This document shows positions 37,520 to 50,555 of a stretch of DNA of 64,000 nucleotides, piece by piece. Position 1 is the first letter of the stretch, and the number at the start of each line of letters is the position of its first letter. A program made the position numbers and the translations under genes. The notes below the pieces were generated by a model, which worked only from the letters and a program-made list of their open reading frames with translations, was not told where the DNA came from and searched no databases. The stretch lies in the NCBI GenBank assembly GCA_016841605.1, contig JAENYV010000007.1, positions 1-64,000 on the forward strand, given 5' to 3'. The stretch is from Dethiobacter alkaliphilus (lineage in GTDB: Bacteria; Bacillota; Dethiobacteria; DTU022; UBA8154).

Positions 37520-38728
37520 ATGATTACTTTTGAAAATGAAATCATAGTGGATAACTTCGCCGGAGGCGGCGGAACTTCAACCGGTATAGAAATGGCGATA
37601 GGACGCCCGGTAGATGTGGCAATTAATCACGATCCCATAGCTATTGCCATGCATAAGGTCAACCATCCAGGAACATTTCACTACTGTGAAAATGTCTGGG
37701 ATGTTGACCCACGGGGAGCAGCGGCAGGTCGCCCAGTTGCTCTGGTATGGCTCTCTCCGGACTGCAAGCACTTCTCCAAAGCCAAAGGCGGCAAACCGGT
37801 CGAGAAAAGCATCCGGGGGCTTGCGTGGGTGGCCGTACGGTGGGCGGCAACGGTTAAGCCTCGGGTAATTATACTCGAAAATGTTGAGGAATTTTGCTTT
37901 CCTCCAGAGACTACAGTTCTTTCCAAACGGGGCGTAATACCCATCGGTGATGTTAAGGTTGGTGACGAAGTATGGACACATAACGCTCGATGGAAACCCG
38001 TGACGGCAAAAGAGTTTTATAACAAAATGAAAGGTCAGGGGCATTGCTGGTGCGTTAATTGGAATCAAGAAAAGCATAGATGGTATGCACGGTATGATCC
38101 CGCAGAATGTGCCCGTATGAAATGTAATAATGACGTCTGTGTTCTTACCGGCAAACCTATCGTTCAGAAAAAAGCTAATGTATTTTATGATTTGAAAGTA
38201 ACCCGTATCAGAAAAGACGGTTCCTTGTTTGACGGGGAAAAGGTTGTCAGTATTACTAAAGGGATAAAAGTTTTCCCGACAACAAATGTGCCTATTACAA
38301 TTTGTGAAGCGTATGTGAAGTTGAAACAGAAAGATTTACTACAAAGAATACGGCTAAATATGCACACAGAATTATTCTTCAACCCTGATACAGAAGTTGA
38401 AGTTTTGAATGTTCGGGCAGAACGCAGGGAAAGCCGTGATTTGCTTCAAGACCTGCGGGATATTCAGGAAGGAGTTGAAGTTGTTCACGCAAGCGACCTC
38501 CAAAAGCAAAAAAAGGAAGCCTACCGGGAGCGCAAGGCCAAACGTAAAGAGACCAAAGAGCGGAAAATCGAACGACAAAACATTGAAAGCTGGAAACGGA
38601 TGGCGCTTGAAGGCGTGAATAGAGACGGAGAGCCAGTCAGCGATGTCATGAAGGACTGGAGCAGGAAGCAATTAGAAAGGCGAGGAATTAACAAAAAAGA
38701 ACCGGTTCAATTGTCATTAATTAACTAA
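37520..38728 (+). CDS. C5-cytosine methyltransferase N-half joined to a truncated intein and an unrelated C-terminus
   Basis: A 402-residue chimera. Residues 1-125 are the N-terminal part of a DNA C5 methyltransferase: motif I DNFAGGGGTSTG, motif IV with catalytic Cys SPDCKHFSKAKGG, and motif VI LENVEEF. Residue 126 onward (CFPPETTVLSKRG, then VGDEVWTHNARWKPV) is an intein N-terminal splicing region, inserted where family members normally continue with TTWGP. No intein C-terminus, no HN/extein junction and no target-recognition domain follow. Instead there is a Cys-containing, then Lys/Arg-rich helical sequence. The enzyme is probably inactive unless completed in trans, and no partner is visible in this window. 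Confidence 0.8.
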   Translation: MITFENEIIVDNFAGGGGTSTGIEMAIGRPVDVAINHDPIAIAMHKVNHPGTFHYCENVWDVDPRGAAAGRPVALVWLSPDCKHFSKAKGGKPVEKSIRGLAWVAVRWAATVKPRVIILENVEEFCFPPETTVLSKRGVIPIGDVKVGDEVWTHNARWKPVTAKEFYNKMKGQGHCWCVNWNQEKHRWYARYDPAECARMKCNNDVCVLTGKPIVQKKANVFYDLKVTRIRKDGSLFDGEKVVSITKGIKVFPTTNVPITICEAYVKLKQKDLLQRIRLNMHTELFFNPDTEVEVLNVRAERRESRDLLQDLRDIQEGVEVVHASDLQKQKKEAYRERKAKRKETKERKIERQNIESWKRMALEGVNRDGEPVSDVMKDWSRKQLERRGINKKEPVQLSLIN

Positions 38729-47372: not shown

Positions 47373-50300
47373 ATGAAATACGAAGACTTTTTAAAAACAA
47401 AAATTATTGAACATTGCCCGACGGGCTTGGATATCAAAGAAGAAGATATCAACGGCAAACTATATTTATTTCAGCGTGATATCACCAAGTGGGCATTAAA
47501 TAAAGGTAAGGCTGCAGTTTTTGCCGATTGTGGCACGGGCAAAACTCCGATACAACTTGCATGGAGCGAAAAAGTATGTGAGCATACCGGCGGCGACGTG
47601 CTTATCCTTGCACCGCTGGCAGTTTCCCGGCAAACTGTCCATGAAGGCAAGAAGTTTGGCATAGAAGTTAATATCTGTCGGACGCAAGCAGACGTAAAGC
47701 CGGGAATTAATATCACTAACTATGAGATGCTTCAACATTTTAATGCAAGCCATTTTGCTGGGGTAGTGCTTGATGAGTGTTTTCCTCTTGATACGTTGGT
47801 TGACATTGTGGAATCCGGAAAAATATACAGAAGAGCGATATCCGAAATATTACCGGGAGATAAAATTTTAAATGCCGGAGGTATTGATGTTGTCACAGAA
47901 ACGCACAAGAGACAAATTAACGGGGCGGTTTATATCAACGCCAATGGAGGAATTATCTGTAGCAAAAATCACCCATTCTTTACCTTGCACGGATGGAGAT
48001 GCGCACAAAATCTACAACCCGGAGATTATATCATGGAGACAGCCACGGCAATGCGCATGGTGTGGGGTAATTTTCAAACCAAAGAGCGTTGGTCAAAAAA
48101 TGCAACGATTTTGCGGGACATCTTGTTCAGCGAAATGGAGAATGACACAGAAGGAAATTTTAGAGAAGGTTCATTCTCCGGAAGTAGCAGCGAAGAGAGG
48201 GAAAAAGAAAAGCGAATGGTTGAAAAGTGGACATCCCAAGGCATTAAAAGAATTGGAAAGAATCCGGTTGTTAAACCCGATGCAAGACGAATCAATGCGA
48301 AAGAAAGTTTCGCAGATTTTACGGGACATGAACCACAAACCTATCGTGCGTGGGGGAAATGGAAAGGGATTGACGGTGCAACAGGCATATCTAAAAAAAG
48401 TTCTTTTAGGAGAATGGATTCCGGAATATGCTATTTCACTGGGGAAACGAAAGACGGGATACCCAACGAATTACAAAGTAGACTTAGGAAATCCAGAGAT
48501 GAAGATAGCAATAGAAATAGACGGAAGCAGTCACTATTCAAGAAAAGAACAAGACAAAAAGAAAGACAATATGCTGGCTTCGTTAGGGTGGAAAGTGTTG
48601 AGGTTTTGGAACAAACAAGTAGAAGACTTGATAAATACAGAAATAAAAACGGAAACATATATTTTTACGATATTAAAGCAAAACGACATCCATCTTTCAG
48701 CGTAAATGGACTGCTTGTGCATAATTCCGGAATACTGAAGGCTTACACAGGAAAAACAAAGCAGGCAATTATCGAAGCTTTCAAGGGCACGCAATACAAA
48801 CTTGCATGTACGGCCACGCCGTCACCGAATGACCACATGGAAATACTTAATCATGCCGCTTTCTTAGATGTTATGCAGAGCCATGAGGCACTGGCAATAT
48901 GGTTCATAAACGATACCATGAACATGGGTAAATACCGGCTTAAAAAGCACGCCGTCCAGGACTTCTGGAACTGGGTGTCATCTTGGGCAATAAGCATTTC
49001 AAAGCCTTCGGACCTGGGCTACAGCGACGAAGGCTTTATACTTCCGCCACTGAATATCATCGAAGAAATTATTGAGGTTGATATTACCAAAGATACAGGT
49101 GACAGACTTTTCCGGGTCCCAGATATGAATGCAACATCTTTCCACAAAGAAAAAAGGCTGACAGCAGAGGCCCGGGCCAAAAGATCTGCAGAGATAGTTA
49201 ATTCTTTCCCTGAGAAACAGTTCATTGTCTGGTGTGATACAAATTACGAAGCCGATATGCTGCGAAAAATGCTTCCTGAGGCAACAGAGATAAGGGGCAG
49301 CGATAAAGCCGACAGAAAAGAGCAGGCAGCACTTGATTTTGTGGCTGGGAAAATAAGAGTTCTAATAAGCAAGCCGTCAATATTTGGCTTCGGACTCAAT
49401 TTCCAACATTGCCATAAGATGATTTTCTGCGGGCTTAGTTATTCTTTTGAACTTTTCTACCAGGCAGTAAGGCGGCTGCTGCGTTTCGGCCAGAAAAATC
49501 CAGTTGACTGCTATGTTGTTATCGGAGAAACAGAAAGACAACTAATTAACACGATTCGCAGAAAAGAAAGTCTTTACGAAGAAATGAAAAGGCACATGAT
49601 AGACAGTATTAAGCGCACTCAGAATATTAAACAGGAAAGGATTGAATACAAGTTGGACTATGAACGTGACATTATGAAAGGAGAAGACTGGACGGCCATA
49701 CTCGGGGACTGCATCGAAGAAACAAGGAATATTGCCGATGCAAGCGTTCATTTTGAACTGTTTTCACCGCCGTTTTCAAGTCTTTACATTTATTCCGATA
49801 GTTATCGGGATATGGGTAATGTTAAAAATGATGAGGAATTTTTCAAGAACTTTGAATATCTCATCCCGGAACTTTACCGCATACTTATTCCCGGTCGGCT
49901 GGTAGCTGTTCACTGTAAACAACTGGTTAATTATAAAAACCGAGACGGGGCTTCCGGGCTAAGAGACTTCCGGGGCGAAATTATTAGAGTTTTCCAGAAG
50001 CACGGCTTTGTTTACCATTCGGAGGTTTGCATCTGGAAAGACCCCGTAATTGAGATGCAGAGGACCAAAAGCCATGGACTTCTCTATAAGCAGCTCCGTA
50101 AGGACAGTAGTTACTCCCGGCAGGGGCTTCCTGATTATTTAGTTGTTTTCCGGAAATGGGACAGCAGCGGAGACGTTGAACCAGTAACAAAAACGAAAGA
50201 AGGCTTTCCGCTGGAAATTTGGCAGAGGTATGCATCCCCGGTATGGTTCGATATTCAGCAGACAAACGTTCTTAATTGTCAGCTTGCCAGAGAGGGAGAG

Positions 50301-50555
50301 GATGAGAAACACATCGCACCCCTTCAAATTGATGTAATTGAACGGGCAGTTGAATTATGGACAAACCCCGGCGATATCGTTTTTACACCATTCATGGGCA
50401 TCGGCAGTGAGTGCTACGGAGCTTTAAAGCTTGGAAGAAAAGCTCTGGGTATTGAATTAAAACGGTCATATTTTGATATTGCGGTAAAAAATCTGAAAGA
50501 TATTTCCGGGCGGAAAGCCCAGGTTGATATTTTTAGCTTGGGGGTGAGCCAATGA
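47373..50555 (+). CDS. Helicase-DNA methyltransferase fusion interrupted by an intein
   Basis: A 1060-residue precursor. Extein part one has the helicase ATP site ADCGTGKTPIQLAW (about residues 50-63) and the Walker B VVLDE at 131-135. The intein occupies residues 136-451 exactly after DE. Extein part two resumes SGILKAYTGKTK with motif III TATPSP and the second helicase lobe to about residue 750. A DNA methyltransferase follows: motif IV SPPF near 798 and the SAM site FTPFMGIGSECYGALKLGRK near 1003, of the N6-adenine/N4-cytosine class. Splicing should give a 744-residue enzyme. Such fusions occur in phages and may protect phage DNA from restriction. Confidence 0.88.
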   Translation: MKYEDFLKTKIIEHCPTGLDIKEEDINGKLYLFQRDITKWALNKGKAAVFADCGTGKTPIQLAWSEKVCEHTGGDVLILAPLAVSRQTVHEGKKFGIEVNICRTQADVKPGINITNYEMLQHFNASHFAGVVLDECFPLDTLVDIVESGKIYRRAISEILPGDKILNAGGIDVVTETHKRQINGAVYINANGGIICSKNHPFFTLHGWRCAQNLQPGDYIMETATAMRMVWGNFQTKERWSKNATILRDILFSEMENDTEGNFREGSFSGSSSEEREKEKRMVEKWTSQGIKRIGKNPVVKPDARRINAKESFADFTGHEPQTYRAWGKWKGIDGATGISKKSSFRRMDSGICYFTGETKDGIPNELQSRLRKSRDEDSNRNRRKQSLFKKRTRQKERQYAGFVRVESVEVLEQTSRRLDKYRNKNGNIYFYDIKAKRHPSFSVNGLLVHNSGILKAYTGKTKQAIIEAFKGTQYKLACTATPSPNDHMEILNHAAFLDVMQSHEALAIWFINDTMNMGKYRLKKHAVQDFWNWVSSWAISISKPSDLGYSDEGFILPPLNIIEEIIEVDITKDTGDRLFRVPDMNATSFHKEKRLTAEARAKRSAEIVNSFPEKQFIVWCDTNYEADMLRKMLPEATEIRGSDKADRKEQAALDFVAGKIRVLISKPSIFGFGLNFQHCHKMIFCGLSYSFELFYQAVRRLLRFGQKNPVDCYVVIGETERQLINTIRRKESLYEEMKRHMIDSIKRTQNIKQERIEYKLDYERDIMKGEDWTAILGDCIEETRNIADASVHFELFSPPFSSLYIYSDSYRDMGNVKNDEEFFKNFEYLIPELYRILIPGRLVAVHCKQLVNYKNRDGASGLRDFRGEIIRVFQKHGFVYHSEVCIWKDPVIEMQRTKSHGLLYKQLRKDSSYSRQGLPDYLVVFRKWDSSGDVEPVTKTKEGFPLEIWQRYASPVWFDIQQTNVLNCQLAREGEDEKHIAPLQIDVIERAVELWTNPGDIVFTPFMGIGSECYGALKLGRKALGIELKRSYFDIAVKNLKDISGRKAQVDIFSLGVSQ
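47778..48725 (+). other. Intein in the helicase Walker B motif
   Basis: A 316-residue intein from Cys136 to Asn451. Block A is CFPLDTLVDIVESG; the block B region is ICSKNHPFFTLHGW followed by LQPGDYI; block F is the C-terminal IYFYDIKAKRHPSFSVNGL ending in LVHN before Ser452 of the extein. Between blocks B and F the intein frame (residues about 225-420) is low-complexity, charged and shows no LAGLIDADG or HNH motif. The other frame there encodes an endonuclease (see 47887-48705). Confidence 0.9.
47887..48705 (+). CDS. Endonuclease nested out of frame inside an intein
   Basis: A complete 272-residue frame in the +1 register relative to the helicase gene, wholly within the intein. It has a zinc finger CAWCGVIFKPKS...RFCGTSCSAKWRM, a spacer rich in Lys with KVSQILRDMNHKPIVRGGNG, and a C-terminal DUF559/Vsr-like nuclease domain: GYPTNYKVDLGNPEMKIAIE, IDGSSHYSRKEQD and LGWKVLRFWNKQVEDL. 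This matches free-standing phage endonucleases of that family closely. An ATG at 47887 has GGAGG five bases upstream (47877-47881); an ATG at 47872 is an alternative giving 277 residues. Its last codons overlap intein block F. It is likely a homing endonuclease. Confidence 0.82.
   Translation: MLSQKRTRDKLTGRFISTPMEELSVAKITHSLPCTDGDAHKIYNPEIISWRQPRQCAWCGVIFKPKSVGQKMQRFCGTSCSAKWRMTQKEILEKVHSPEVAAKRGKKKSEWLKSGHPKALKELERIRLLNPMQDESMRKKVSQILRDMNHKPIVRGGNGKGLTVQQAYLKKVLLGEWIPEYAISLGKRKTGYPTNYKVDLGNPEMKIAIEIDGSSHYSRKEQDKKKDNMLASLGWKVLRFWNKQVEDLINTEIKTETYIFTILKQNDIHLSA

Follow-up and report, generated by a model that had tools for sequence, protein, structure and literature searches.

In textbook inteins the endonuclease is a domain encoded in the same reading frame as the intein itself. 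Fractured genes in which split inteins occur with a Vsr-like family of homing endonucleases were reportedly described by Dassa et al. in 2009. Work on fractured genes is cited in PMC12350094, and the phage-derived, intron-encoded homing endonuclease I-Bth0305I carries the Vsr-like motif E-x-D-G-x-x-H...D of the EDxHD group (PMC3943268). The nearest published precedent that we found is the ShiLan domain, presented along with the Pacc40 gp60 insertions by Arsenault, Gosselin and Gogarten in 2025 (PMC11855218). Here we describe an intein in a helicase-methyltransferase gene within a 64,000-nucleotide stretch of Dethiobacter alkaliphilus DNA (assembly GCA_016841605.1, contig JAENYV010000007.1, positions 1 to 64,000; hereafter the window). 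From its sequence and those of its relatives, this is very probably a mobile intein that carries its homing endonuclease as a gene of its own, overlapping it at +1.

The locus shares with canonical LAGLIDADG or HNH inteins, such as that in the thyX gene of the same phage (see below), a Hint domain, the junction residues, insertion into a conserved active-site motif and a presumed homing life style, but its endonuclease is encoded by a distinct gene in a different frame and lies outside the excised protein. Like the fractured genes, it combines an intein with an EDxHD/Vsr-type nuclease gene rather than an in-frame domain, and four relatives (L138, L175, L289 and L290) have the same layout as those genes, whereas the window and 150 other homologues of 158 have an unbroken intein with an overlapping nuclease gene. 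The window nuclease has the Vsr-like motif and phage origin of I-Bth0305I (PMC3943268), but it is located in an intein and has an N-terminal zinc finger and a DUF559 domain. The ShiLan insertion, too, lies in a phage methylase or helicase-methylase, leaves the host frame open, is disordered when read in that frame and hides an endonuclease in another (PMC11855218). No intein or intron was found there, however, and the insertion is thought to be retained in the protein; its nuclease is of the HNH type, no Shine-Dalgarno (SD) site was seen, and a leaderless GTG start was proposed (PMC11855218). The window thus shares the out-of-frame endonuclease in an open insertion, and differs in having a self-splicing domain. 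An intein with an out-of-frame nuclease was not found in the open-licence literature searched. The original prediction, a reading of the sequence, knew of no described case; the intein-less ShiLan insertion is a partial precedent (PMC11855218). Both components, the putatively mobile intein and the EDxHD-type nuclease, are of known kinds; we did not find their arrangement described.

The host gene encodes a superfamily 2 (SF2) helicase fused to an N6/N4 DNA methyltransferase, with Pfam matches to Helicase_C (4.4e-07), N6_N4_Mtase (1.8e-16) and Intein_splicing, and the intein is inserted directly after the Asp-Glu of helicase motif II (Walker B). Its reading frame matched Intein_splicing (6.8e-11) and PT-HINT, in agreement with the predicted extent from Cys136 to Asn451 followed by Ser. 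In alignments of 66-71 sequences Cys1, H65 and N316 are invariant and H315 nearly so; with the +1 Ser, these are the residues of a class 1 intein. In the AlphaFold model the two Hint halves are ordered and the linker between them is disordered, and Foldseek searches of the PDB with this model returned the gp41-1 and DnaB inteins (E ~5e-5 to 3e-4) as well as RecA inteins, as expected for a Hint fold. The intein frame had no Pfam match to any nuclease family and therefore lacks a recognisable in-frame homing endonuclease.

The original prediction had placed a complete protein of 272-277 codons, with a zinc finger and a DUF559/Vsr-like domain, in the +1 frame, behind a GGAGG with an ATG five bases later, and all of this was borne out. 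The longer version, of 277 codons, starts at ATG 47872 (47872-48705), and the duplex energy of the GGAGG was -10.1 to -10.8, compared with -6.9 for the control. The zinc-finger cysteines are nearly invariant among relatives (alignments A4 and A6), and D204, E215, D217, H221 and D228 are invariant in ~65 diverse sequences, as befits an EDxHD/Vsr-like (DUF559) catalytic domain. AlphaFold predicted a folded nuclease (mean pLDDT, the predicted local distance difference test, 86), whereas the intein model has values of ~50 over most of its middle.

Relatives were sought with nuclease alignments only, which are blind to the overlapping frame; scans of IMG/VR gave 80 + 80 + ~77 + 6 loci. As a single-protein query, the window nuclease retrieved no nested homologue from viral or genome contigs, and alignments were needed. 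The four scans, the isolate phages and the window make up a set of 158 distinct nucleases, 151 of which are nested at +1 in an unbroken intein open reading frame (ORF), with four in split genes and three free-standing; none is at +2 or in frame with the intein. The nuclease is thus carried as a separate overlapping gene, as predicted, and its nearest relatives are themselves nested, contrary to the claim that it closely matches free-standing phage endonucleases. In the first scan 79 of 80 nucleases were nested at +1, in enclosing ORFs of 430-1721 aa, and the first three scans together gave 150 distinct nucleases, 145 at +1 and five without an overlapping ORF. A tblastn search of 50,697 phage records with the nested protein hit 40, many under a helicase-annotated gene. 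Seven isolate phages were taken (L001-L007: Corynebacterium phi673, Vibrio 1.088, 104E43.1, 1.194, CP-T1 and 159E43, and Pseudomonas MR14); in all seven the nuclease is at +1 within an unbroken intein that separates DE from CHH in helicase motif II. The nested gene is annotated in none of these records, where the whole gene is labelled helicase, hypothetical or similar.

N- and C-terminal intein motifs were present in 87/87 nested loci checked closely, nearly always as DE↓C...HN↓C/S (arrows mark junctions), with boundaries called automatically and patterns checked by eye for ~15 loci. Pfam recognised Intein_splicing in 61/66 inteins and DUF559 in 64/64 nucleases. The host genes of nested loci encode SF2 and SNF2 helicases, helicase-methylases, terminase large subunits and a clamp-loader ATPase (DnaX); the last is the C-extein of L088, confirmed by Pfam. 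Judged by translation only, the C-exteins of L246, L250, L254, L256 and L277 also resemble DnaX-like clamp-loader ATPases.

The intein frame remains open across the overlap. Among 87 loci it contains 0 stops in 18,669 codons, against 1327 stops in the third frame. When the window nuclease was recoded with the codon usage of its own gene, the intein frame acquired a mean of 16.5 stops and was open in 0/2000 trials, so the overlap in the window is not due to chance; over 74 distinct loci the same procedure predicts 888 stops where none is observed. In the extein parts of these genes, stops in the equivalent (-1) frame occur at 12 per 200 codons, and one of 185 windows of 200 codons is open; free-standing relatives have 4-70 stops in the corresponding frame. 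These extein, third-frame and free-standing controls led us to reject openness as a by-product of codon or dinucleotide bias. The counts show selection for an open intein frame, as the substitutions described next do for a protein in the nuclease frame.

Substitutions between relatives indicate which frame is constrained. In the L002/L004 pair, changes at nuclease codon positions 1/2/3 number 3/0/32, and synonymous/nonsynonymous changes 31/4 for the nuclease vs 5/29 for the intein; in the L003/L006 pair, changes at nuclease positions are 4/3/20. In such close pairs most changes thus hit the wobble base of nuclease codons, and most are silent for the nuclease but alter the intein. Within the clade of the window, differences ahead of the nuclease core concentrate on intein position 3 (0.44; 0.43 in the N-extension) and those in the core on nuclease position 3 (0.45), while over the last 150 nt, covering blocks F/G, they are spread (intein positions 0.40/0.25/0.35). 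On this evidence the constrained frame switches along the element from intein to nuclease to both. It follows that the linker may vary provided it is free of stops, and that real double constraint is short. The proposed dual coding, under which the unit must satisfy splicing and nuclease function at once, accordingly stood for the ~150 nt at the 3' end (blocks F/G); over most of the overlap the intein frame is a disordered linker kept stop-free and no more. The coordinates of these features are collected in Table 1.

Table 1. Coordinates of the intein, the nested nuclease gene and their host gene in the window.
Feature	Position	Strand	Details
SF2 helicase fused to N6/N4 DNA methyltransferase (host gene, phage)	47373..50555	+	1060 aa, intein included
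Intein, 316 aa, Cys1 to His-Asn316 (ORF residues Cys136-Asn451)	47778..48725	+	followed by +1 Ser (Ser452)
N-terminal intein half (IntN), blocks A-B, residues 1-98	47778..48071	+	pLDDT ~97
Intein-frame linker over nuclease core, stop-free, disordered	48150..48578	+	pLDDT ~45-63, roughly residues 125-265
C-terminal intein half (IntC), blocks F-G, residues 268-316	48579..48725	+	pLDDT ~96-97
Nested nuclease gene, +1 frame	47887..48705	+	272 aa from ATG 47887; stop codon 48703-48705
SD-like GGAGG of nested gene	47877..47881	+	5 bases ahead of ATG 47887
Nuclease zinc finger CxxC...CxxxC (C61, C64, C81, C85)	48052..48126	+	resembles FCS zinc finger 2w0t
DUF559/EDxHD (Vsr-like) catalytic domain	48469..48636	+	Pfam DUF559 4.3e-14; similarity to DUF559-like 3hrl
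Stretch under double constraint (C-terminal end of nuclease, intein blocks F/G)	48558..48705	+	substitutions spread over codon positions of both frames

The gene is fractured not in the window, whose intein frame is open, but in L138, L175, L289 and L290, where the intein-frame linker has 10-21 stops over the scored interval and IntN, nuclease and IntC are separate genes. The N half stops just past block B and is overlapped by the nuclease for 104-119 nt; the nuclease is still at +1, with its own ATG; and a second ORF, comprising blocks F-G and the remainder of the helicase, overlaps the end of the nuclease by 133-139 nt. All four are candidate natural split inteins. In a tree of a sample gathered with nested queries, and with its root not fixed, they form one clade (100/99), whose sister is the nested pair L083/L176 (95/92), inside the nested majority. 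A change from nested to split is therefore the simplest reading, and the nested arrangement has probably given rise to naturally split inteins; by hypothesis, it might be ancestral to all fractured genes. In another relative, the free-standing nuclease L028:3366-4205, about half identical to that of the window, the intein remains recognisable but stop-ridden in the old intein frame. We think it reasonably likely that these loci represent a large, hitherto unrecognised class of phage inteins with a fully overlapping +1 nuclease gene and an intein frame reduced to a stop-free linker, in which loss of the linker has led to fractured genes and to at least some natural split inteins.

Vibrio phage 1.251.O (L099) encodes the helicase of the occupied Vibrio 1.194 (L004) in an intein-free form (DE↓CHH, the arrow marking the insertion point); over 545 aa the two exteins are identical at 96% of amino acids and 84% of nucleotides. 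At the level of sequence, this intein-free allele shows mobility. A homologue of the window gene in phage vir525, ~50% identical, is also intein-free (LDE↓SSILK). The use of an identical insertion site across unrelated host genes fits homing-driven spread.

The anatomy of the element, its conserved +1 relation, the selection on its frames, the intein-free allele and the descent of the split-gene relatives are established here by sequence comparison, and we propose that the element works as follows. Translation of the main ORF would yield a helicase-intein-methyltransferase, whose Hint halves (residues 1-98 and 268-316) would join the parts of the host enzyme by splicing; the in-frame segment separating these halves, whose DNA also encodes the nuclease, would be a disordered linker, free of stops so that the intein remains one piece. 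The nuclease, with its zinc finger and DUF559/EDxHD domain, would be produced when ribosomes initiate internally at ATG 47887, behind its SD-like site, and would cleave alleles lacking the intein at their Walker B codons, leading to homing. Splicing, internal translation, cleavage, target site and homing are predictions of this scheme.

Several observations weigh against this reading. Foldseek matches to the full-length nuclease are weak (best E 0.045; I-Bth0305I (3r3p) 0.34; 3hrl among the matches), block B of the intein reads Ser-x-x-His in place of Thr-x-x-His, and the majority of relatives are metagenomic contigs. SD sites are weak in some relatives, 51% of loci having energies of -6 kcal/mol or lower. 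Within the clade of the window, the N-terminal extension of the nuclease over block B is under intein-type constraint only, so the true nuclease start could be further downstream.

This N-extension, not clearly constrained as nuclease, is also what speaks for a functional intein carrying the nuclease as a decaying, unexpressed passenger. That account is very improbable given the purifying selection on the nuclease frame in close pairs (31 synonymous to 4 nonsynonymous changes), the invariant or nearly invariant catalytic and zinc-finger residues in the diverse sequences, and the free-standing and split relatives, which retain the nuclease while the intein frame decays. Alternatively, ribosomes could slip from the intein frame into that of the nuclease by programmed +1 frameshifting, producing an IntN-nuclease fusion with no internal initiation, and every case is indeed at +1, the direction of one slip from the intein frame; a constant +1 is, however, also explained by a single origin. 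In 42/81 loci an upstream stop in the nuclease frame lies <=5 codons from the first ATG, leaving little room for a slip, and candidate nuclease starts have a mean SD-like energy of -5.25 vs -3.31 kcal/mol at random positions in the same stretch (72 loci, p = 3e-6). The close relatives L017-L019 start the nuclease at the equivalent place with an SD-like site, and the split relatives give it an ATG of its own. The SD-like sites and the nearby upstream stop therefore favour internal initiation, by which the nuclease would be translated, and frameshifting is improbable.

An out-of-frame nuclease concealed in a phage methylase or helicase-methylase would also suit an insertion of the ShiLan kind, in which the in-frame segment is retained unspliced and the nuclease alone matters (PMC11855218). 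The full Hint blocks with Cys1, His-Asn and +1 Ser/Cys, the Pfam intein match and the ordered Hint model make such retention highly improbable; moreover, the insertion splits Walker B, and the unspliced product should therefore be inactive. Finally, two compensating indels in one genome could turn an ordinary intein with an in-frame nuclease into a pattern like that of the window, as a sequencing or assembly frameshift pair, and no result supports this. The original prediction had named such a pair, and an intein frame broken in relatives, as what would overturn it. The intein frame is without stops in the 87 loci noted above, and the +1 relation recurs in 151 distinct sequences, isolate phages among them, with no in-frame homologue in the sample of 158; a frameshift pair therefore has next to no chance of being the explanation, and a mobile intein with a separate, overlapping nuclease gene is the reading that we prefer.

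Neighbouring genes in the window encode a scaffold protein, a tape measure protein, an integrase, a CI-like repressor, a primase and a polymerase processivity factor, and are by their predicted products those of a temperate phage or prophage. The ThyX thymidylate synthase gene of the same phage (53088-54962) has a conventional intein with an in-frame LAGLIDADG endonuclease and junctions at about GMN↓C...GN↓C. Both types of intein are present in the helicase of L034:2435-6328, with a nested DUF559 nuclease at motif II and an in-frame LAGLIDADG in the second intein. A C5-type DNA methyltransferase in the window (37520-38728) has a normal start followed by an apparent N-terminal intein half (EEF↓CFPPETTVLSKRGVIPIGDVKVGDEV...); the window yielded no C half to match it, and this intein-like part may be a truncated or split remnant.

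In this arrangement two functions are assigned to two proteins from one stretch of DNA, and the arrangement is conserved across phages of Corynebacterium, Vibrio and Pseudomonas. The overlap of ~650 nt, from zinc finger to stop, is to our knowledge among the largest conserved same-strand overlaps in phages, and it illustrates that selection can act on openness alone. Gene callers miss the nested nuclease, as the seven annotated phage records show. The many Hint halves, cut at a natural split point, may serve protein engineers. The arrangement also offers a direct path by which a continuous intein could become a natural split one: stops in the linker would leave IntN, nuclease and IntC already laid out. 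Recurring in over 150 distinct sequences from widely differing phages, it appears to be a genuine and widespread type of mobile element.
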